Shown: positions 19,782-29,926, numbered from the stretch's first letter. The stretch is DNA of 43,109 bases from an archaeon (GCA_018652475.1 JABICB010000018.1:1-43109); one strand, 5' to 3'. The notes: generated from the letters alone by a model not told the origin. A program made the numbers and translations.

Positions 19782-19835
19782 TTCTATGGTTTTATATACG
19801 AAAGCTTTATAAATTTCTTTTAACATTTGGCACTC

Positions 19836-20675
19836 ATGCAAAAGAGAGGACAAGTAACTATTTTTATTATTCTAGGAATTGTAGTTTTATCTATTGTAGG
19901 TTTTCTTTTTATGCAAAGAGGTGCAATTCTAGGAGATGAATTAGGTGAAGAAGAACTTGAACGATTTGTTGGAGTTCAGTTAGAACCAATTCGTACAGGA
20001 ATTGAAAATTGTGTCGAAGTTAGTTTATTAAAATCAATAGATGCTGTTTCTATGCAAGGAGGAAAGGCCTTTCCTGCTGAAACTATTAGTTTAAATTGGG
20101 GAGAATCTTTAGTTGCTTATGCATATGATTTAAATATTCCTCGAACTTATTTTCCAACTCTTTATGGATTTGGAAATGAAGTCAAAAAATATATGGATCT
20201 GGATGAGGAATTAGAAGGGTGCATAGAATCTGTGTTTAATACATTTGATGAGCTTGATTTAAGTATCTCTGAAATTAGCCCTCTTGAATTAAGAGTTCCT
20301 TTAATTACAGATAATCAAGTTAAACAAGAAATTATTTATCAATTAGAAATTAGTCGTGGTGATTATGTTGCTACGATTGATAATATGTTAACTGTTATTG
20401 AGCTTCCCCTTGGGAGGGCAATAAGAGGTGCTAATGCAATAATTAGTTGTCATTCTGGAGATTATAATCTTTATCCTAATTATAATTTATTTTGTAACAT
20501 TGGAGGGGTTTCATTTGATTGGTTTAGTTGGACAGTTGTTTCAGGAGAAAATAATTATGGTAATCAACTTAATTCGAATGCTAATACTATAGATGAGTGC
20601 AATAAACTTTATAATATTTATATCCCTACTGAATCAGAGGCAATACAACTTAGTGTATTGATAAAATCATGTTAA
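19836..20675 (+). CDS. Pilin-like protein with class III signal (KRGQVTIF)
   Basis: A 279-residue protein starting MQKRGQVTIFIILGIVVLSI: a short charged leader, Gly-Gln cleavage site and about 20 hydrophobic residues, the format of archaeal pilins processed by a prepilin peptidase. The large extracellular part has seven or more cysteines (for example ENCVEVS, ISCHSGDYN, FCNIGG, SC at the end). First of a run of five such proteins. A TTTATAAAT box (about 19807-19815) lies 29 bases upstream of ATG 19836; a TTG three codons earlier is less likely. It overlaps the next gene by 7 bases. Confidence 0.75.
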   Translation: MQKRGQVTIFIILGIVVLSIVGFLFMQRGAILGDELGEEELERFVGVQLEPIRTGIENCVEVSLLKSIDAVSMQGGKAFPAETISLNWGESLVAYAYDLNIPRTYFPTLYGFGNEVKKYMDLDEELEGCIESVFNTFDELDLSISEISPLELRVPLITDNQVKQEIIYQLEISRGDYVATIDNMLTVIELPLGRAIRGANAIISCHSGDYNLYPNYNLFCNIGGVSFDWFSWTVVSGENNYGNQLNSNANTIDECNKLYNIYIPTESEAIQLSVLIKSC

Positions 20676-23600
20676 ATAAAACTAAAAAAGGATTGAGCAT
20701 ATTTATGTCTTTTTTAATGGTTTTTGCCTTTCTTAATTTTGCTATTATTTTAAACGCCGAACCAGTTTCTGCAGCATCAGCATGTTGTATTCTGGATAAT
20801 TCTGGTAATTATTGTGTAGATGGAGACAGTACTGAATTGGATGATTGTGCTTCTGGTGAATTAATAGATTATACAACTTGTTCTGCACTAGGTGGGGATT
20901 GTGCGTTACAGACTTGTGTTCCTTCAGTGGGAACTTGTTTGTCAGATTATCCAAATAGGCAGTGTTCTGATGAAGGTGGTGTTTCTTATCCAGGTCCTAA
21001 GTCTGGAGTTTCTGATTGTTCACTTGGATGTTGTAATGATGGTGGAATTTGTGGAGTTAAGGAATCTAATGAGTGTAGTGGTGAGTTTACTGCCGGAGTG
21101 ACTAATAATGTTCAATGTAATTCACAATGTGCTACTAATGAAATAGGGTGTTGTGAATTAGGGGGTAGTTGTTCTTTTGATTTTAGTAGTTCTTGTTCGT
21201 TGGAAGGTAATTTCCATGCAAACGCAGTTTGTAGTTCTATTAATTCTTGCCGGGCAAGATTAGATGATCCTTCTGGGCATTCTTATAAAAATTGTGGAGA
21301 TATCGAAGAAGGCGATGCCCATAAAGTTTATTGGTATGATAGTGATGGAAATCGGGATGATTTAGTGGAAGATTGTAACTACCCTGATAATACCTGTTTC
21401 GATTCTGATGGAGATGGAGGTGCTGAAGATGCAAGTTGCATAAGTACTGCTTGTGTTGAGGATTGTCCAGAATGTGATCCTTCTTCATTGAAACAAGGAG
21501 AGAGTATTTGTTTAACTTTGTATAAAGGTTCTTATTCTAATGATCAGAGAAGTAAATATTTGAAAGAATATATTTTACAATGTCAGAATGGTAAAATTGA
21601 AGCTATTGAAGATATATATCATGGTGAAAAAGTTTGTATTGATAATGAAGATAAAGATTTAGGTGAGTTTACTCGTAGGAGTGCAAAATTTGTTCAAAAC
21701 CTTGCTAGTGATTGTTCAAGTTCTGGCGGGCCAGGTAAGTGGTTGGATGTTTTTGGTTATGTTCCAGTATTGGGTGCCCCACTTGTTTCACTAGGTGATT
21801 ATTCTCATGCTGATGATGGTTGGACTAATGCTTGGTGGGGCGGAGAAAATTGTAATGATATTGTTTTAGAAGGTTCCACAGATATTAATATGTGCGAATA
21901 TGATCATGATTTTTGGGCACCGCTTGGTTCTTGTAATCCTCTTTATCCATTACCTACTGAAGAAAAATGTGGTGAGTGTGGTAAGGGTGGAGATCCTTAT
22001 ACTAATGCTTGTACTGAACAAGAATGTAATGCTTTAGGCGATTGTCAATTCGAACATCAAAATTTAGATTTGGAAGCTTTGGCCATAGTAGGAGGATTAG
22101 CAATAGGTAGCGCAAGTGCTACTATTTTAACTAATACTCTCCTTTGCGCAATAGGATTTGGAATTTCTTGCACCCCTACTACTTGGGGTTCAATTGGTGC
22201 AGGTATTTGGGGATTGTTAGGTAATAGTTTATTTTGGGGCGTTTTTGGAATTGTCGTAGGTGCAGGTGCAGGTATGGCTGCAGAAGTACCTCAATATGTA
22301 TTTTCAAATGTTCAAGAGAATGGTAGAGTTGATTTAGCTAAGACTTATGCAATTGCTAGATCTTTAGAAAGTCAAGCTCTTGCTGAACAAAGTGAGGGGG
22401 ATTTTGATCATGGTTGGTTCCTTGCAGGTGAAGGAATAGTTGATTTAGCTAGATTAAGTTTAGAAACTGGAGGAATTTTAGCTGCTGAAACTATTGGAAG
22501 GTGGTTGATTAAACGGGCCGTTGAAAATGCTCTTAAGGATGCAATCAAAGATCTAACTGGACAGGCAGCTATTGAAGCATATAATGCTGCAGCTATAGAA
22601 TTGACTGCTAGTTACGGAGTGACTATAGCTAGTGCTACTACTACTGTTCCAGCTACTGCAGCTATAGAAACTACAGCAAATACAGTTTCTTCTCAAGCTA
22701 CTCCTGAGATTGCAAGTAATGCAGGAAATACTTTGTCTGGAATTATTCAAGTATTAGGTATTGCTTATACTATTTATCAAACATCAGAAGCTTTCCAAGT
22801 TGGAGAGTGTACTCCTGAAGCAGCATATACAAATAATGATCATTGTTGGCAATGTGGTGGACCTGAAGGCCAGTGGGTTTGTAGCGAAGAAAGGTGTCAA
22901 GTGTTAGGTGGGGAATTCGATCATTGTGAATATTTACCTTATGATAATGTTCCGGGCGATGGTGCTTGTGTTGAAGTAGATGTAACTGATTTTGATGCAC
23001 CTATTATAGATTATATTAACACTGAAGTTTATGATATGAATGAAAATTATGTTGAAGAGTTTGAACAGTCCGAAGCATCAGGAAGAAATGAATTAGTAAT
23101 TCCTATGTCAGGTAATTATGGTTGGGAAGAGGTTGGTTCTGTGAAAATTAATGTTAATACTACTACTCCTTTAGATGTTGCTGAAAGAGCAAATTGTAAA
23201 TGGTCTAGAGAAAGTGGTTCTGAGTTTGCAAATATGAATCCCTTTGAACTTGGAAATTATCCTTTTAGTAATCATGTAAATATTACTTTGAATGAAGGAG
23301 ATAGAGATAATGGCGGAGTTACTTTTTATATTAAATGTTCTGATTTGAGTGAAAATGTCCAAGGTGTAACTGATGATTATTATAGTGTCGAAGTTAAATT
23401 CGGAGATAGGCCAGATTATTTACCACCTACTTTATGGGGTTTAAGTCCAATAACTTCTGCATTTTTACCAGAAGGAACAAATTTATTGGCAGTAAATATC
23501 AAAGTAGGAGATAATAACCAAGTTGTCGGGTGTAAATATTCTAATGAGGCAAGTGAATATTCTTTGATGGAAAATAGTTTCACATTCGAACAATCAGTTA

Positions 23601-24325
23601 ATTGCCCAGGAGAAAGTGCAAGTAGTTGTTCACTTTACGGTGCTAATGTTGTTTTAGAAGAGGGTGTTAGTGTAGAAGGTTCTGAAGATGTATCTTATCT
23701 CTATAATATTGCCTGTATAGATGGAAGTGGTAATGGGGGAATTGTTTTTAATAATGTACAGTTAGATTCTTTCAATTATTCATTTACAGTTGTTCCAACT
23801 TTCAATATTACGATAGAATCTCCTTTGACTGGAAGTAACACTTTTGATTCTACGCCTTTAATTCAAGTCTTAACTTCTAGATTAACAGTGGGTTGTGATT
23901 ATACTATGGATGGAATTGAATATGAATTTAATGAGATGGGAAGTTCAAGTTATGTATTAGAACATCCTGAGGAATTGAGTGGTAGTAGTTATGGTATTGC
24001 TCATACTATGAGTGTAACTTGTACAGATCATGCCTTTAATGAAGTAACTACTAGTTCAACATTTTATGTAGTTGGTGATGAGATTGCACCTAGTCCAGTT
24101 AGGATTTTTACTGCTGGAAATAATTTACATATTATTTTGGATGAAGAAAATACTGCATGCGAGTATTCAAATGAAGTTTCAAATTTTGTTTATGGGGAAG
24201 GTTTAGAAATGTTTGGAGTTCCTCCTGAACTTAGTGAACATTATGCTGCCTTAGGTTTTAATGTTTATTATATACAATGTAAGGATCAATTTGATAATAT
24301 TGGAAGCTTTACAGTTTACCCATGA
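20669..24325 (+). CDS. Giant cysteine-rich secreted protein with four Ig-like repeats
   Basis: A 1218-residue protein. Signal peptide at about 1-35 (MLNKTKKGLSIFMSFLMVFA, cleavage near SAASA). Residues 36-270 are packed with cysteines in short knots (GCCNDGGICG, GCCELGGSCS, ECPECDP-like patterns). Residues 468-545 hold strongly hydrophobic Gly/Ala segments, and 615-680 an Ala-rich helix. The C-terminal third carries four related modules that begin C-x-Y/W-S/T (ANCKWSRESGSEF about 840, VVGCKYSNEASEY 951, TVGCDYTMDGIEY 1073, NTACEYSNEVSNF 1160), as in extracellular Ig-like repeats. No enzyme motif seen. It overlaps pilin-like genes on both sides (7 bases and ATGA), so it is part of their operon. 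Confidence 0.72.
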   Translation: MLNKTKKGLSIFMSFLMVFAFLNFAIILNAEPVSAASACCILDNSGNYCVDGDSTELDDCASGELIDYTTCSALGGDCALQTCVPSVGTCLSDYPNRQCSDEGGVSYPGPKSGVSDCSLGCCNDGGICGVKESNECSGEFTAGVTNNVQCNSQCATNEIGCCELGGSCSFDFSSSCSLEGNFHANAVCSSINSCRARLDDPSGHSYKNCGDIEEGDAHKVYWYDSDGNRDDLVEDCNYPDNTCFDSDGDGGAEDASCISTACVEDCPECDPSSLKQGESICLTLYKGSYSNDQRSKYLKEYILQCQNGKIEAIEDIYHGEKVCIDNEDKDLGEFTRRSAKFVQNLASDCSSSGGPGKWLDVFGYVPVLGAPLVSLGDYSHADDGWTNAWWGGENCNDIVLEGSTDINMCEYDHDFWAPLGSCNPLYPLPTEEKCGECGKGGDPYTNACTEQECNALGDCQFEHQNLDLEALAIVGGLAIGSASATILTNTLLCAIGFGISCTPTTWGSIGAGIWGLLGNSLFWGVFGIVVGAGAGMAAEVPQYVFSNVQENGRVDLAKTYAIARSLESQALAEQSEGDFDHGWFLAGEGIVDLARLSLETGGILAAETIGRWLIKRAVENALKDAIKDLTGQAAIEAYNAAAIELTASYGVTIASATTTVPATAAIETTANTVSSQATPEIASNAGNTLSGIIQVLGIAYTIYQTSEAFQVGECTPEAAYTNNDHCWQCGGPEGQWVCSEERCQVLGGEFDHCEYLPYDNVPGDGACVEVDVTDFDAPIIDYINTEVYDMNENYVEEFEQSEASGRNELVIPMSGNYGWEEVGSVKINVNTTTPLDVAERANCKWSRESGSEFANMNPFELGNYPFSNHVNITLNEGDRDNGGVTFYIKCSDLSENVQGVTDDYYSVEVKFGDRPDYLPPTLWGLSPITSAFLPEGTNLLAVNIKVGDNNQVVGCKYSNEASEYSLMENSFTFEQSVNCPGESASSCSLYGANVVLEEGVSVEGSEDVSYLYNIACIDGSGNGGIVFNNVQLDSFNYSFTVVPTFNITIESPLTGSNTFDSTPLIQVLTSRLTVGCDYTMDGIEYEFNEMGSSSYVLEHPEELSGSSYGIAHTMSVTCTDHAFNEVTTSSTFYVVGDEIAPSPVRIFTAGNNLHIILDEENTACEYSNEVSNFVYGEGLEMFGVPPELSEHYAALGFNVYYIQCKDQFDNIGSFTVYP

Positions 24326-24801
24326 AACGTGGACAAGTAATGGGTCAACCTATTATTTTTGTATTCTATGCTATAGTGGCTATTCTTGTTTTATTTCTTG
24401 GATTCAAGTGGGTAGTTAATGTATCTGATCAAGGTAATGAGGCTGAGTATGTCATTTTTATGAATAATTTAGAGAGTGAAATTGAAAGAATTGCTTCTTA
24501 TAATTCTGGTAGTACTATTTTATTAGATGAGTTAAGAATTCCAAAAGGTGTTGAAGAAATTTGTTTTGCTGATTGGGATCTTACCCAGACCGGAGTGGTT
24601 AATGATGAAATTCTTTCTGGATATATCTTTGCAGTAGATGGTGGTGAAAAAAATATTTTCTTTGCTGGTGAAAAAATTAAAGCACTTAGTTCTGATTTTT
24701 CTTTAAGTGTTAGTCCGCTGTGTGATTCTACTCTAGATGGCAAGCTTAATTTCAAACTTAGCAAGGAAGGTTCGTCTGTTTTTGTTAGGTCACTATCGTA
24801 G
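24322..24801 (+). CDS. Pilin-like protein with class III signal (KRGQVMGQ)
   Basis: A 159-residue protein starting MKRGQVMGQPIIFVFYAIVA, with the same Lys/Arg-Gly-Gln leader as the others followed by a hydrophobic helix to about residue 34. The extracellular domain has two cysteines (EICFADWD and PLCDST). The ATG overlaps the giant protein's stop as ATGA, so translation is coupled. Minor pilin or pseudopilin is the best guess. Confidence 0.72.
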   Translation: MKRGQVMGQPIIFVFYAIVAILVLFLGFKWVVNVSDQGNEAEYVIFMNNLESEIERIASYNSGSTILLDELRIPKGVEEICFADWDLTQTGVVNDEILSGYIFAVDGGEKNIFFAGEKIKALSSDFSLSVSPLCDSTLDGKLNFKLSKEGSSVFVRSLS

Positions 24802-24808
24802 TAAGTTA

Positions 24809-24816
24809 TTTAAATT
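24809..24816 (+). promoter_or_regulatory. TATA box inside the pilin-like cluster
   Basis: TTTAAATT begins 28 bases before ATG 24837. It suggests a second transcript covering the last three pilin-like genes. Confidence 0.45.
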
Positions 24817-24836
24817 ATAAATTCTAAAATTAGGTT

Positions 24837-25661
24837 ATGAATAGAAGAGGTCAAGGTATGCAGTTCAGTTTAACTTTTGCTATGTTTGCTGGGGTGATCT
24901 TATTATTATTGTTTGCAATGTTTGCTTTCAAGTATATTGGGTTGCAAGAAAAGAAAGAAAGTGTAGATATTGGTAGAAATTTAAATAATTTAATTACTAG
25001 TGCTAGAGGTAATAATCAATATTTAGTTTATAATCCAGATATTCCCGATTTTGATTTACAATTCAGTTTAAGTAATTGTGGGGAGTTCTGGATTAATAAT
25101 TATATGCAGGTAAATACTTATGATACTTTATTCGGTAGTTCTTCCTTAGGTAATGATTATGTTATATGGAGTACTACTTGGGATGAACCTTATGAGATTG
25201 CTTCTTTAATTTATATTTCTCCTTCCGATCGTAGTTATTATTTTTCTGATGGTCTTGGTTATTTGGAAACTAAATTTAGTGGACATTTTAATGTCGTTGA
25301 TAATGCTAATGGTGCTGATGTTGTAGTTGTTAGTTCTTCTGGTACTCATTCTGGAAGAGAGATAGTTGTCGGAACTAATCAAGTTAACTTGGATGGTCGA
25401 TGGTACAATGCTCCTTCTGTTGAGTTTGTTTATGGTGCTATTTTTGCAGAGAGTGCAACACAGTATAATTGTAATTATGAAATGTTATTAAGTAGATTTG
25501 AAATTTTGAAAAATATTTATAGGGCTAAGGTACAATCTTTAGCTGGTTGTAATTATAATGAAATGATTATGCTATTAGATTCTATGGCTGTTGATAATTA
25601 TGAGGCTGTTGTTGATGAAAATTATAGATTAAGTAATTTTGATTGCGAGGTGGTATTCTAA
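24837..25661 (+). CDS. Pilin-like protein with class III signal (RRGQGMQF)
   Basis: A 274-residue protein starting MNRRGQGMQFSLTFAMFAGV. Charged leader, Gly-Gln and a hydrophobic helix to about residue 32, then a large extracellular domain rich in Tyr, Asn and Ser with cysteines at SNCGEF, YNCNYEM, AGCNYNE and DCEVVF. No recognised domain. Its TAA overlaps the next ATG (TAATG), another coupled junction. Confidence 0.72.
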   Translation: MNRRGQGMQFSLTFAMFAGVILLLLFAMFAFKYIGLQEKKESVDIGRNLNNLITSARGNNQYLVYNPDIPDFDLQFSLSNCGEFWINNYMQVNTYDTLFGSSSLGNDYVIWSTTWDEPYEIASLIYISPSDRSYYFSDGLGYLETKFSGHFNVVDNANGADVVVVSSSGTHSGREIVVGTNQVNLDGRWYNAPSVEFVYGAIFAESATQYNCNYEMLLSRFEILKNIYRAKVQSLAGCNYNEMIMLLDSMAVDNYEAVVDENYRLSNFDCEVVF

Positions 25662-26080
25662 TGAAGAAAGGTCAAATGCAAATGCAGGAGTCTATCTTTG
25701 TAATCTTTTTAGTTATGTTACTGATAATAATCGGAATGATATTTTTTTTTAAGTACACTGCTGCAGGAATTGAAGATTCTAAATTAGAATATGAAGAGTA
25801 TAGATTTATGCAGTTGATTGGAGTTATTCCAAATCTACCTGAATTAAGATGTTCCCATCTTGGTGTCGCTAATGAGTGTGTTGATCTTTTGAAAGTCAAT
25901 GCCTTTAATGGAGAGTATAGTTTATTTTCGGGAAAGGAAATAAAGATAGGTAACAGATTAATTTACAATGATTTAAGTTGTACCGATGTTCGTATTGTGA
26001 GTAGTCCAATTAGTTTATATGATCCATTAAGTGGTCGATACTCTGTTAGTGAATTAGAAATAAGGTGGTGTCCAGAATGA
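25661..26080 (+). CDS. Pilin-like protein with class III signal (KKGQMQMQ)
   Basis: A 139-residue protein starting MKKGQMQMQESIFVIFLVML. A long hydrophobic helix ends near residue 31 and is followed by an extracellular part with cysteines at LRCSHLG, NECVDLL, LSCTDVR and RWCPE. It is preceded by an SD-like GAGGTGG inside the previous gene. The TTG further upstream in frame is rejected. Its TGA overlaps the next ATG. Confidence 0.72.
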   Translation: MKKGQMQMQESIFVIFLVMLLIIIGMIFFFKYTAAGIEDSKLEYEEYRFMQLIGVIPNLPELRCSHLGVANECVDLLKVNAFNGEYSLFSGKEIKIGNRLIYNDLSCTDVRIVSSPISLYDPLSGRYSVSELEIRWCPE

Positions 26081-26496
26081 AGAAAGGTCAGATAGAAATG
26101 ATTGGTTTAGTTGTGATTGTTTTTTTAGTTATTTTAATTGGTATGTTTGCTTTACGTCTATCTTCTTTTGATAGTGATAATGATGTTGATATTTATTACA
26201 GCGTCAAGGTTGATAATTTAGTTAATGCTATTTATCAGTCCGATATAGGTTCTGAGAGTTTTCAAAGCTTGGCAATTGGATGTTGCGATGGTAATTCTGG
26301 TTCTTGTAATAAGGTAGAATTATTTGTAAGAGGGGTGCTAGATAGTGTTATTGAGGAAAAGGTTAATTTTATGTTAAAAGATTCTACTGGCATTAATTGT
26401 GCATTTGTCGACGGTGAATGTAGTGAGGGGATAGGTTCAAGCAGTATATTCTTGCCCGGCGGTCATGAAATTCGAGCTATTTTGTGTAGAAAGTAG
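26077..26496 (+). CDS. Pilin-like protein with class III signal (KKGQIEMI)
   Basis: A 139-residue protein starting MKKGQIEMIGLVVIVFLVIL. The leader and Glu at position +3 of the mature helix (Q-I-E) are the closest of the five to a classical pilin. The extracellular part holds GCCDGNSGSC, NCAFVDGEC and a final LCRK, so disulfides are likely. Similar in size to the preceding gene and possibly a paralogue. AGGTGGTG serves as SD. Last gene of the cluster. Confidence 0.73.
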   Translation: MKKGQIEMIGLVVIVFLVILIGMFALRLSSFDSDNDVDIYYSVKVDNLVNAIYQSDIGSESFQSLAIGCCDGNSGSCNKVELFVRGVLDSVIEEKVNFMLKDSTGINCAFVDGECSEGIGSSSIFLPGGHEIRAILCRK

Positions 26497-26536: not shown

Positions 26537-26563
26537 TTAAATGCATGCTAAAATAGACAAAAC

Positions 26564-26572
26564 TTTATAAAT
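26564..26572 (+). promoter_or_regulatory. Promoter of the S-layer gene
   Basis: TTTATAAAT, a strong archaeal TATA box, with purine-rich ACAAAAC before it. Transcription should begin near 26594-26598, leaving a leader of about 105 bases before ATG 26700. That is much longer than at the other genes in the window. Confidence 0.6.
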
Positions 26573-26699: not shown

Positions 26700-28718
26700 A
26701 TGAAAATGATAAAAAAAATATTGGCTGTAAGCGCAGGTATTGCTATGCTTGGAGCTACAATGACAGGAGCTCTTGCTACTGATCTTGGTGACTTACCAGG
26801 ACCTTTCGTGGCAGATGGAGCATATGTTAATGCTGCAATGGTTATTGGTAATGATGCTGATGCTCTTGCACAAAACGAAATAAAGACTTATATGGATGGA
26901 TTATTAACTGCTACAAGTACAGATTTGAGTTATGCAGATAGTTATTCTAAAGATTTCACATTAGATGATGATATTAATGCATTTGGTGATTTAGATGATA
27001 GTCAATTTGAAAATTTATTGATTGACGAAGATATCACAGTTAATGGCGATTCAATAAGTGTACATGAAGAAATAACTATTGGTGCTGCTGAATTTACTTT
27101 AAGTGGTGAAAGTGGAGATGAAGATCTTTCTGGAGATATTTATTTAGCTATGGGTGCAGATCAAATTGTTTATAAATATATATTTGATAATGTTATCAAT
27201 TTAACTGATGCAGAAGTTGATTCTGATGATCCATTAGAAATTAATTTTTTGGGTAAAACTTTAAAAATAACTGAAATTACTGCAGATAATAAATTAGCAC
27301 TTACTCCTGGTGAAACTTTTTTAAAGAAGATTGGTGAAAGTGTTTCTTTTAGTGGAACTACAGTGATTGTTTCAGAAATATTTTCTGATGATGCTATTTT
27401 TACTGTTAATGGTGTAGAGTATCCCCTTTCAGATAATGATTCTGATGAATTAGAGGGTGAAGATCTTGATATTCAAGTTACTTCTGTTCTTTATGATGAG
27501 AATGATGTTTCTAGATCAAGGGTTGAATTTACTTTAACTGAAACAGGAACAGATACAGCTGCAGAAGATGATCAAGTATTTGAATTATATGAAGATTTCG
27601 AAGATGATGAAGAAGATACTGTATGGAATTGGGAAATTTCTGCTGATGATAGTGATAATACTATAACTCATATTGGTGTTACATTTAATCAAGCTATATC
27701 CAGTATTGATACTTCTGAAGAATCTGATGAAGATTTAGTTATGGAACCAATAACACTTGGTGGGGAATATGTATTGCCAAATAATTTTGCGTCTGTATCT
27801 TTTGATTCAATTAATTTAATGGATTCACCTGTTGAATTGACTATAGAAGCTTTAGAAAGTTACACTATTAATGGTTCTTCTTTAGATGAATTATTTAAAG
27901 TAACTGCTGATGATGATGTATTTTCATATAGCAATTATAACTTTGAAAAGTTTTACATTGATGTAAATGTAACTGCAAATAGTTCTGACGTATGGTATAA
28001 AGATTCAGATAATGATTGGCAAGAAATAAATGTTGCTGATGTATCTATTGATTATAGTGATGCTACTGCAGATTATGCATTTGCAATAAATGCAACTACT
28101 GATGTATTAACTCTTGCTAATGTAGGTACTGGTGGAAATCTAACCTGGGATTATACTAATATTGTTGAGGATCTTAGTGAAGAATGGGAAGATACAACAC
28201 TTACTTATGATACAAGAACATACGAAAGTGCAGATTATAATGTTTTAACTGATTATGGTGTAATAATCTATGATGTTGAAAATAATCTTGAATCAGATAA
28301 AATTGTTATAGCTTTGATTGATGGTGTTCCAGAAGCTACACTTTCAGTAAACTATATTGGTTCTATTTCAGAAGATACAACATCTGCAGCTTTGATGACT
28401 CCAGAACAAGTTACTGACGCAACAGCATACAACCTAATCTTAGTTGGTGGTCCATGTGTTAACAGTTTAACTGCACAATTTGAAGGTGTAGCAGCTGGTT
28501 CATGTGACGCAGCATCCGGTTACTCAGCAAACACTGGTTACGTAAAGTTATTCGATAATGGTGAAAAAGTAGCATTAGTTGTAGCTGGTTGGGAAGCAGA
28601 CGATACTAAGAGAGCAGCAAAAGTTGTAGTTAACCCTGCAAGTTTCGCATTAGCTGGTAAATCTGCTGTAACTGTAACAGGTACAGGTCTAGAAGTTAGT
28701 GGAATAACAGTAGCGTAA
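26700..28718 (+). CDS. S-layer protein
   Basis: Main surface-lattice protein candidate, 672 residues. Signal peptide about 1-26 (MKMIKKILAVSAGIAMLGAT, cleavage near GALA). The mature protein is strongly acidic (many Asp/Glu runs) and has several N-x-S/T sites. The C-terminus has archaeal S-layer family hallmarks: NLILVGGPCVNSLTAQFEG, two cysteines and ALVVAGWEADDTKRAAKVVV. Own promoter, long leader and strong SD indicate high expression. Codon use changes in the final ~105 codons towards C-ending Asn, Asp, Tyr and Phe codons, unlike the preceding ~500 codons. Confidence 0.85.
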   Translation: MKMIKKILAVSAGIAMLGATMTGALATDLGDLPGPFVADGAYVNAAMVIGNDADALAQNEIKTYMDGLLTATSTDLSYADSYSKDFTLDDDINAFGDLDDSQFENLLIDEDITVNGDSISVHEEITIGAAEFTLSGESGDEDLSGDIYLAMGADQIVYKYIFDNVINLTDAEVDSDDPLEINFLGKTLKITEITADNKLALTPGETFLKKIGESVSFSGTTVIVSEIFSDDAIFTVNGVEYPLSDNDSDELEGEDLDIQVTSVLYDENDVSRSRVEFTLTETGTDTAAEDDQVFELYEDFEDDEEDTVWNWEISADDSDNTITHIGVTFNQAISSIDTSEESDEDLVMEPITLGGEYVLPNNFASVSFDSINLMDSPVELTIEALESYTINGSSLDELFKVTADDDVFSYSNYNFEKFYIDVNVTANSSDVWYKDSDNDWQEINVADVSIDYSDATADYAFAINATTDVLTLANVGTGGNLTWDYTNIVEDLSEEWEDTTLTYDTRTYESADYNVLTDYGVIIYDVENNLESDKIVIALIDGVPEATLSVNYIGSISEDTTSAALMTPEQVTDATAYNLILVGGPCVNSLTAQFEGVAAGSCDAASGYSANTGYVKLFDNGEKVALVVAGWEADDTKRAAKVVVNPASFALAGKSAVTVTGTGLEVSGITVA

Positions 28719-28749
28719 AGCTACTTTTATTCTTTTTTTTCTTTTTTTA
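28709..28749 (+). terminator. Terminator of the S-layer gene
   Basis: AGTAGC (28709-28714) and GCTACT (28720-28725) form a 6-base-pair stem with loop GTAAA that includes the stop codon. It is followed by two long T-runs up to about 28748. T-rich tracts terminate archaeal polymerase. Confidence 0.6.
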
Positions 28750-28788
28750 ATAGAAAGTTTTTTAATTGAATTCTACATATAGTAATTT

Positions 28789-29292
28789 ATGAAATCTAAT
28801 AAGAGAAATTTATGGATGCCTTTAATGATAGTATTCTTAATGGTTAGTAGTACTATTGGTTTTATGTATGGGGGATCAGAAGATACTAGAGAAAAATATA
28901 ATGGATTTACATTCACTAAAACAACTCAAGGTTGGTTAACTTATATAGGTGGACAAAAATTCATTTTCCAATATTTACCAAACGAATTAGAGAGTATAGA
29001 ATTTAATGAATTAAATTATGAAAATTTATATTTGGCTTATTCGCCAGGAGAAATTACTAATGAATTAAGTTATTCTTTTAATTTATTATATGGGACTTTC
29101 ATACTTAAGGATATTATTCCCCAACCTGCATGTTTCGAAGAATTAGATTGTCCTGATTTGCCCATTGTTTCTTGTAATGAAGGTAAAAACATAATTGGTT
29201 TTGGAAATGAAACTGAAGGGTGTTTTATGATTTCAGAAAACTATATTAAGAATACAGAAAGAATTGTTTATGATATTTTAGGAGTTATATAG
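28789..29292 (+). CDS. Membrane-anchored protein, paralogue of the next gene
   Basis: A 167-residue protein with one N-terminal TM helix (about 8-27) and an extracellular domain. The opening GFTFTKTTQGWLTYIGGQKF and PNELESIEF align with GDFEFNVDSTQG and PKELEYISY in the following gene, and the ends (RIVYDILGVI and FVYRALGVL) match. Four cysteines lie at 124-155 (PACFEELDCPDLP, SCNEG, GCFMIS). I do not recognise a named family. A T-rich TATA-like box is about 33 bases upstream. The stop precedes the next gene by one base. Confidence 0.68.
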   Translation: MKSNKRNLWMPLMIVFLMVSSTIGFMYGGSEDTREKYNGFTFTKTTQGWLTYIGGQKFIFQYLPNELESIEFNELNYENLYLAYSPGEITNELSYSFNLLYGTFILKDIIPQPACFEELDCPDLPIVSCNEGKNIIGFGNETEGCFMISENYIKNTERIVYDILGVI

Positions 29293-29293
29293 A

Positions 29294-29926
29294 ATGGATA
29301 AAAAAACTGAAAAAACTATTAATGTTATAATTATATCTTTAGTTGTTTTATTATTTTTATTAATATTTAATGTTTATTTTGATAAAACTAAAGATCACTA
29401 TATGTGGGAAGGTCCTGCAGGAGATTTCGAATTTAATGTAGACAGTACACAAGGAATCACTTTTCACTTATTGAAATTAGAAGATGTTTCTGGACATAAA
29501 GATAATGTTCCTTTTGAATATGGTCCAAAGGAGTTAGAGTATATATCTTATGATGGAGATATTACTGATAAATTGGTTGGAAAAGAATTAATTTATATTA
29601 CTCAAAATCCAGAAGATAGTACTATCTCTAGTGGTAGGACTGTTATTGCATCCTTAACGGTATATCGAATATTAAATAGGCCAGTTGTACCTTTTGTAAA
29701 TACTGCTGCAAATGTTGCGATCACTCAAATGTATGAAGGTTATGATAATCAATTAGCTATTGTTAACTGTGATGATGTATCTGAAACACAAGGTGTTGTT
29801 TTATTAAAACAAGGTTTTAGCAATTCAATGTATCTTGAAGGGGATTGTGTCGTTTTAGAATTTGTTGAAGGAGATAGTGTTAAAGTTGCAACAGCATTTG
29901 TTTATAGAGCATTGGGTGTTTTGTAG
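29294..29926 (+). CDS. Membrane-anchored protein, paralogue of the previous gene
   Basis: A 210-residue protein with a TM helix at about 10-28 and an extracellular domain distantly related to that of the preceding gene, but with an insertion around residues 100-140. Two cysteines, in VNCDD and GDCVVLEF, could pair. It ends VYRALGVL. Function unknown. Its position directly behind the S-layer gene suggests a surface role, but this is only context. Confidence 0.66.
   Translation: MDKKTEKTINVIIISLVVLLFLLIFNVYFDKTKDHYMWEGPAGDFEFNVDSTQGITFHLLKLEDVSGHKDNVPFEYGPKELEYISYDGDITDKLVGKELIYITQNPEDSTISSGRTVIASLTVYRILNRPVVPFVNTAANVAITQMYEGYDNQLAIVNCDDVSETQGVVLLKQGFSNSMYLEGDCVVLEFVEGDSVKVATAFVYRALGVL

Follow-up and report, generated by a model that had tools for sequence, protein, structure and literature searches.

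The operon FimU-PilV-PilW-PilX-PilY1-PilE of the Pseudomonas type IVa pilus encodes minor pilins together with a secreted protein of about 1200 residues. A role of PilY1 at the pilus tip has been described (PMC4858521), and for euryarchaeal pili the same study proposed two DUF2341 proteins as PilY-like tip proteins, together with five or more minor pilins of class III, and found no cognate pilins for one of the nanoarchaeal ATPase clades (Makarova et al. 2016, PMC4858521). The KilLMN Tad pili of Myxococcus carry interchangeable tips (PMC12075869). Concerning DPANN archaea, two pilus systems were mentioned for Nanoarchaeota in 2018 (PMC6142677), attachment organelles and unidentified appendages were imaged by cryo-electron tomography (PMC11104419), and the secreted family cls.004306 (NEQ255), present only in DPANN, was found near S-layer-like genes (Makarova et al. 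2019, PMC6393860). Here we analyze a stretch of 43,109 nucleotides (the window), which is contig C2 of a DPANN archaeal genome of 525,744 bases in 20 contigs, and which encodes at 19836-26496 five pilin-like proteins (P1 to P5) and a giant secreted protein located between P1 and P2. Gene order, the leader motif, the homology of P2, the presence of a motor and a prepilin peptidase, an immunoglobulin (Ig)-like fold and the link between this block and a second pilin-like cassette support that P1-giant-P2-P5 probably supplies the minor pilins and the adhesin of a divergent, second type IV filament system in Nanobdellota-type DPANN.

As in the Pseudomonas operon, several different minor pilins and a single secreted protein of about 1200 residues are encoded together. 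Unlike PilY1, the giant has no PilY1 or DUF2341 match, being an Ig-like and Cys-rich protein with a hydrophobic centre, and the leaders of its neighbours are of the archaeal class III. The DUF2341 archaeal pili share with our system a large putative tip protein, at least five class III proteins, TadC or a TadC-like candidate, a peptidase and an association with the S-layer, but the window proteins match neither DUF2341 nor any Pfam pilin model. The KilLMN tips are similar in their paralogous tip sets and in the large, variable and disulphide-rich domains of their minor pilins, whereas the large domain is there a part of the pilin and the giant is a separate protein with Sec-type secretion. Likened by its description, the DPANN-only family cls.004306 could be a component of this locus. 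No description of the gene set was found in the literature searched, which excluded most subscription journals. A previous annotation made from the DNA alone (the sequence-only reading) had proposed a new surface system, and this is upheld only in part, since we read it as a type IV filament system of divergent type, which does not make a new class.

The pilin-like proteins and the giant

All six open reading frames predicted by the sequence-only reading were confirmed, all of them on the plus strand, with five proteins carrying a (K/R)(K/R)GQ leader and a hydrophobic helix around the giant. P1 (19836-20675, ATG start, leader MQKRGQ within MQKRGQVTIF) is the usual upstream partner of the giant (20669-24325), and it is followed by P2 (24322-24801, MKRGQ), P3 (24837-25661, MNRRGQ), P4 (25661-26080, ATG start, MKKGQ) and P5 (26077-26496, ATG start, MKKGQ). 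The tight junctions were equally recovered from the open reading frames (a 7-base overlap, ATGA, TAATG and ATGA), with a gap of 35 bases between P2 and P3. A class III leader and an N-terminal hydrophobic helix are present in the five window proteins, and the strict form of the leader, defined as [KR][KR][GA]Q plus a hydrophobic stretch, was detected in 93/116 homologues of P1, 39/58 of P2, 15/60 of P3, 32/60 of P4 and 43/58 of P5, against a background of 26 among 1131 other open reading frames. P4 also has an invariant Glu six residues past the predicted cleavage site. The numbers of Cys in P1, giant, P2, P3, P4 and P5 are 6, 60, 2, 4, 4 and 6, all even, in such a way that the many cysteines attributed to the pilin-like proteins were overstated for P2, the others having 4-6.

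Regarding sequence relatives, the six window proteins gave only chance-level matches to Pfam and NCBIfam, neither these proteins nor the P1, P4 and P5 families matched significantly the curated Pfam pilin models, and a search of the PDB with the P1 and giant profiles produced nothing significant. P2 shows homology along its length with the pilin whose gene lies directly 5' of that of the canonical pilus ATPase, with 146 columns aligned to this ATPase-adjacent family of relatives and a pairwise E of 6.6e-10 (E-values from our local scripts refer to small databases). P1, P3, P4 and P5 gave at best leader/helix or low-probability matches to the same family. The AlphaFold model of P1, with a predicted local distance difference test (pLDDT) score of 89.5, has a long pilin-type helix (residues 4-73) and then an alpha/beta head; P1 thus resembles pilins by its leader and its modelled helix, and its head is of an unrecognised type.

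The giant has 1218 residues and comprises a signal peptide, a Cys-rich N part, a hydrophobic, Gly/Ala-rich and nearly Cys-free centre (22046-22807, residues 424-677 of the aligned form) and a C-terminal part (22808-24322) with a C-x2-C...C-x4-C-x3-LG motif and tandem Ig-like or cadherin-like domains. The same architecture, with a conserved Cys motif and Ig-like repeats in the C part, is common to 75 homologues, in which a 19-residue hydropathy of at least 1.6 is reached in the centre in 75% of cases, in the N part in 7% and in the C part in 0%. The centre contains up to four helix-length stretches and is the fastest-changing and least conserved part of the protein. The secreted nature, length and hydrophobic Gly/Ala centre claimed for the giant were thus borne out, and the cysteine knots also attributed to it are putative. 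Its Ig-like repeats found support in both the model and the fold search, which assign tandem Ig-like or cadherin-like domains to the C-terminal third. The AlphaFold model (mean pLDDT 72.7) is good in the N and C parts and poor in the centre, and Foldseek matched it to Ig and cadherin domains in tandem and to pieces of the grappling hook protein of Aureispira (GhpA), which we read as a predicted Ig-like stalk and not as kinship. There was no Pfam match at E up to 1, no beta-propeller signal and no match to a toxin or pore family. In several Pacearchaeota-labelled loci and in one small-genome family, the giant gene is split (553 + 806 residues in locus L134), and this therefore suggests that the giant consists of two interacting modules. 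In L134:10982-15078 and several of the Pacearchaeota-labelled loci the break coincides with the edge of the hydrophobic centre, which belongs to the second chain.

Conservation of the block and a second motor

With the giant as the query, matches were obtained in 49/61 relatives, and the neighbourhoods of 20 of these, together with 76 named loci from Woesearchaeota, Pacearchaeota and unclassified Nanoarchaeota metagenome-assembled genomes (MAGs), gave the shared layout PCNA-[P1-giant]n-P2-P3-P4-P5-S-layer-D1-D2, where the P1-giant unit occurs one to three times. The taxonomy beyond the named loci is one that we infer. These loci were picked via the giant, which biases the giant adjacency, and 20 distant loci selected by P3 alone served as an unbiased check. 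Upstream of P3 these showed P2 in 20/20, a large Cys-rich gene in 19/20 and P1 in the 11/11 that could be judged, and downstream P4 and P5, each in 19/20. The genes thus stay together, as the sequence-only reading had required of itself, and their order is kept in very distant families. P3 is the most widespread marker of the module, its profile matching 219 of the 279 genomes of the phylum; a related-locus search gave no match with P3 alone and did match with the giant alignment as the query. P3 was not found in an order of compact single-contig genomes of 0.6-0.7 Mb (0/9; the order of G140). Most genomes surveyed are MAGs, in which absences may be gaps. Seven TadC matches were seen in each of three genomes of the G140 order that were checked, and their prepilin peptidase matches were sub-threshold only.

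In nearer relatives the conserved unit exceeds the six genes of the sequence-only reading, as the S-layer gene is part of it, along with the genes of two small membrane proteins (26700-29926). The S-layer gene (26700-28718, with a Pfam S_layer_C match) lies 3' of P5 in 30/33 nearer loci and in 6/20 distant ones.

Neither an assembly ATPase nor TadC had been noticed in the window, and whole-genome searches agree, as they match contigs C1 and C18 only. Two T2SSE-type ATPases, a TadC pair and an A24 prepilin peptidase (C18:18660-19532; match at C18:18684, E 1.3e-17) were found on these other contigs. C1 holds a canonical pilus operon with one ATPase, two TadC and class III proteins. C18 holds, in one direction, the gene for ATPase 2 (C18:30847-33129, 760 residues), most similar to archaellum/TadA motors, an overlapping gene for a 709-residue protein (C18:28721-30850), a gene for a 271-residue pilin-like protein and the genes q7-q1. 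The distant machinery that had been supposed to serve the block is thus supported, and can probably be specified as this ATPase/709-residue protein operon. A cassette at C18:22916-27617, with about eight mostly single-helix pilin-like proteins and then an OB-fold (RPA-like) gene, resembles the genes found 3' of P5 in distant relatives.

The 709-residue protein has nine helices, laid out as two fused TadC domains. Its C half compared with TadC-b gave z = 7.0 (8.4 for the copy of genome G095), the best of 25 multi-helix controls reaching 3.6, and the N half compared with TadC-a gave z = 4.9 for the G095 copy and only 1.3 for the copy of this genome, with controls up to 1.5. Its sequence matched nothing in Pfam, NCBIfam or the PDB and a two-sequence profile comparison was weak, so the protein is described here as TadC-like, and not as TadC.

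Homologues of the 271-residue protein and q-type genes lie 3' of P5 in 11/14 distant loci without the S-layer gene at that place, and also in G095. Since the syntenies of the P block with the second cassette, and of the latter with ATPase 2 and the 709-residue gene, can be chained, these data support a single system, divided here between two contigs. Only single-sequence matches were used for this, because iterated q-cassette profiles drifted onto P1-P5 through leader/helix similarity. In G095, a genome of 6 contigs and 98% completeness, the module and the peptidase are accompanied by ATPase 2 (805 bits to ours) and the 709-residue partner (47% identical), and the whole genome gave no canonical ATPase and no TadC match; its ATPase 2 and 709-residue genes are unlinked to the P block and to each other. 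At C6:31300-32745 of the same genome (L218), the peptidase gene is directly 5' of a gene for a P4-like class III protein. In another locus (L057:16104-18448), a degenerate pilus ATPase and a degenerate TadC adjoin a giant cluster; this pair was rejected as a direct link, as the Walker A motif is gone from the ATPase and neither protein is seen by Pfam.

Proposed assembly and alternative explanations

In the mechanism that we propose, the A24 prepilin peptidase would trim the leaders of P1-P5, whose helices would sit in the membrane and would be assembled by ATPase 2 and the 709-residue protein, acting as a fused double-TadC-like platform, into what we infer to be a single physical filament. 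The disulphide-rich secreted giant would bind the P1-P5 complex, P1 first, and would be exposed at the distal end, where it would act as an adhesin with Ig-like arms reaching through the S-layer, possibly to adhere to host or neighbouring cells. The linkage of the S-layer gene suggests a coordination with the passage through the lattice, and the tandem duplication of [P1-giant] next to a single P2-P5 set resembles, by analogy with the Tad tips of Myxococcus (PMC12075869), a system of interchangeable tips. Adhesion to the host would be the natural reading for episymbiotic archaea. It is a bolder and quite improbable extension that the second type IV filament is a dedicated DPANN contact device, kept throughout a phylum whose members are mostly episymbionts, in which the disulphide-armoured giant at the tip recognises the other cell by its Ig-like domains, inserts its hydrophobic centre into the membrane of that cell and docks at a gap in the S-layer.

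Several points weigh against assigning the block to a second filament. The evidence for all six proteins is computational. The Gln after the leader is often missing in P3 homologues, and the P1 head had no match to solved structures at E <= 1e-3 in the fold search (best E 7e-3). The 709-residue protein is not seen as T2SSF by Pfam, and its putative TadC homology is argued from the helix layout, from the place in the operon and from pairwise z-scores. The P block and ATPase 2 are on separate contigs here, linked through the chained synteny between genomes. Finally, canonical TadC is kept in 58/61 close, order-level relatives, in which use of the first motor is possible. This conservation also favours the alternative that the canonical machine of C1 (ATPase and two TadC) serves the block, which would then be its tip, like FimU-PilVWXE/PilY1 in Pseudomonas, and so does the homology of P2 with the pilin directly 5' of the canonical ATPase. 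Against it, among 40 good genomes with P3, TadC is absent in 12 and only marginally matched in 3 more, and 14 of these 15 keep the prepilin peptidase (56/58 in all genomes surveyed), whereas TadC is present in 16 of 18 genomes without P3; G095 lacks the canonical ATPase as well. Given the P3 genomes without TadC and given G095, the reading of the block as a tip for the canonical pilus alone lost its first place, and we consider this alternative unlikely.

A second alternative is that P1-P5 are non-polymerising, membrane-anchored pseudopilins that fix the giant within the S-layer lattice and so form a scaffold or anchor of the envelope, in the way that FlaF/FlaG bind the S-layer around the archaellum. 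The S-layer gene adjoins the block in most nearer loci, the locus is shared despite separate putative promoters, and the long disulphide-rich architecture of the giant would fit such a function, but the scarcity of the S-layer gene in the distant loci, the tandem [P1-giant] duplication, better suited to interchangeable tips, and the motor genes that accompany the second pilin-like cassette make it decidedly unlikely. It is highly improbable that the giant acts on membranes, its central segment entering the membrane of a partner cell to form a pore or to drive fusion after pilin-based delivery: the centre is hydrophobic, nearly Cys-free and Gly/Ala-rich in most of the 75 homologues, with its helix-length stretches, and falls in the C chain of the split forms, but helices anchoring the giant in the membrane of its producer explain it equally, confidence of the model is low there, and this least conserved part comes in a protein matching no toxin or pore family.

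Flanking genes and significance for DPANN archaea

The block, a probable part of a second type IV filament system, is preceded by housekeeping genes for RNA polymerase L, signal peptidase I, TFS and PCNA, and P1-P5, the giant and the S-layer gene evolve faster than the neighbouring PCNA, TFS and signal peptidase I. Downstream of the S-layer gene, D1 (28789-29292) encodes a single-helix membrane protein, also found after the S-layer gene in relatives, and D2 (29294-29926) is its paralogue, with its position kept in relatives; both single-helix proteins (28789-29926) track the S-layer gene. A putative P1 promoter, AAAGCTTTATAAA (19801-19813), consists of a TATA box with a purine-rich flank resembling a B recognition element, around 25 bases 5' of the P1 start, and the S-layer gene has a putative promoter of its own, AAAACTTTATAAA (26559-26571). 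Exact matches to AAANCTTTATAAA occur only twice in the window, before P1 and before the S-layer gene; with up to one mismatch there are seven sites, not unusual with respect to shuffled sequences, and the promoter calls are thus supportive only.

By which means DPANN archaea attach to other cells and draw food from them is an old question, and the block, through its link with a divergent pilus-type machine, is a concrete candidate for this contact. As P3 was found in 0/9 genomes of the small single-contig order, the block need not explain every DPANN attachment, and for the same absence it is not claimed as the attachment organelle of cultivated nanoarchaea. The block suggests candidate pilins for the nanoarchaeal ATPase type whose cognate pilins were noted as missing in 2016 (PMC4858521). 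What is offered is a defined gene set, made of P1-P5, the giant, its S-layer partner, ATPase 2, the 709-residue platform protein and a further pilin-like cassette, which is present in most of the phylum and is kept where the canonical motor seems to be lost, so that it is directly testable.

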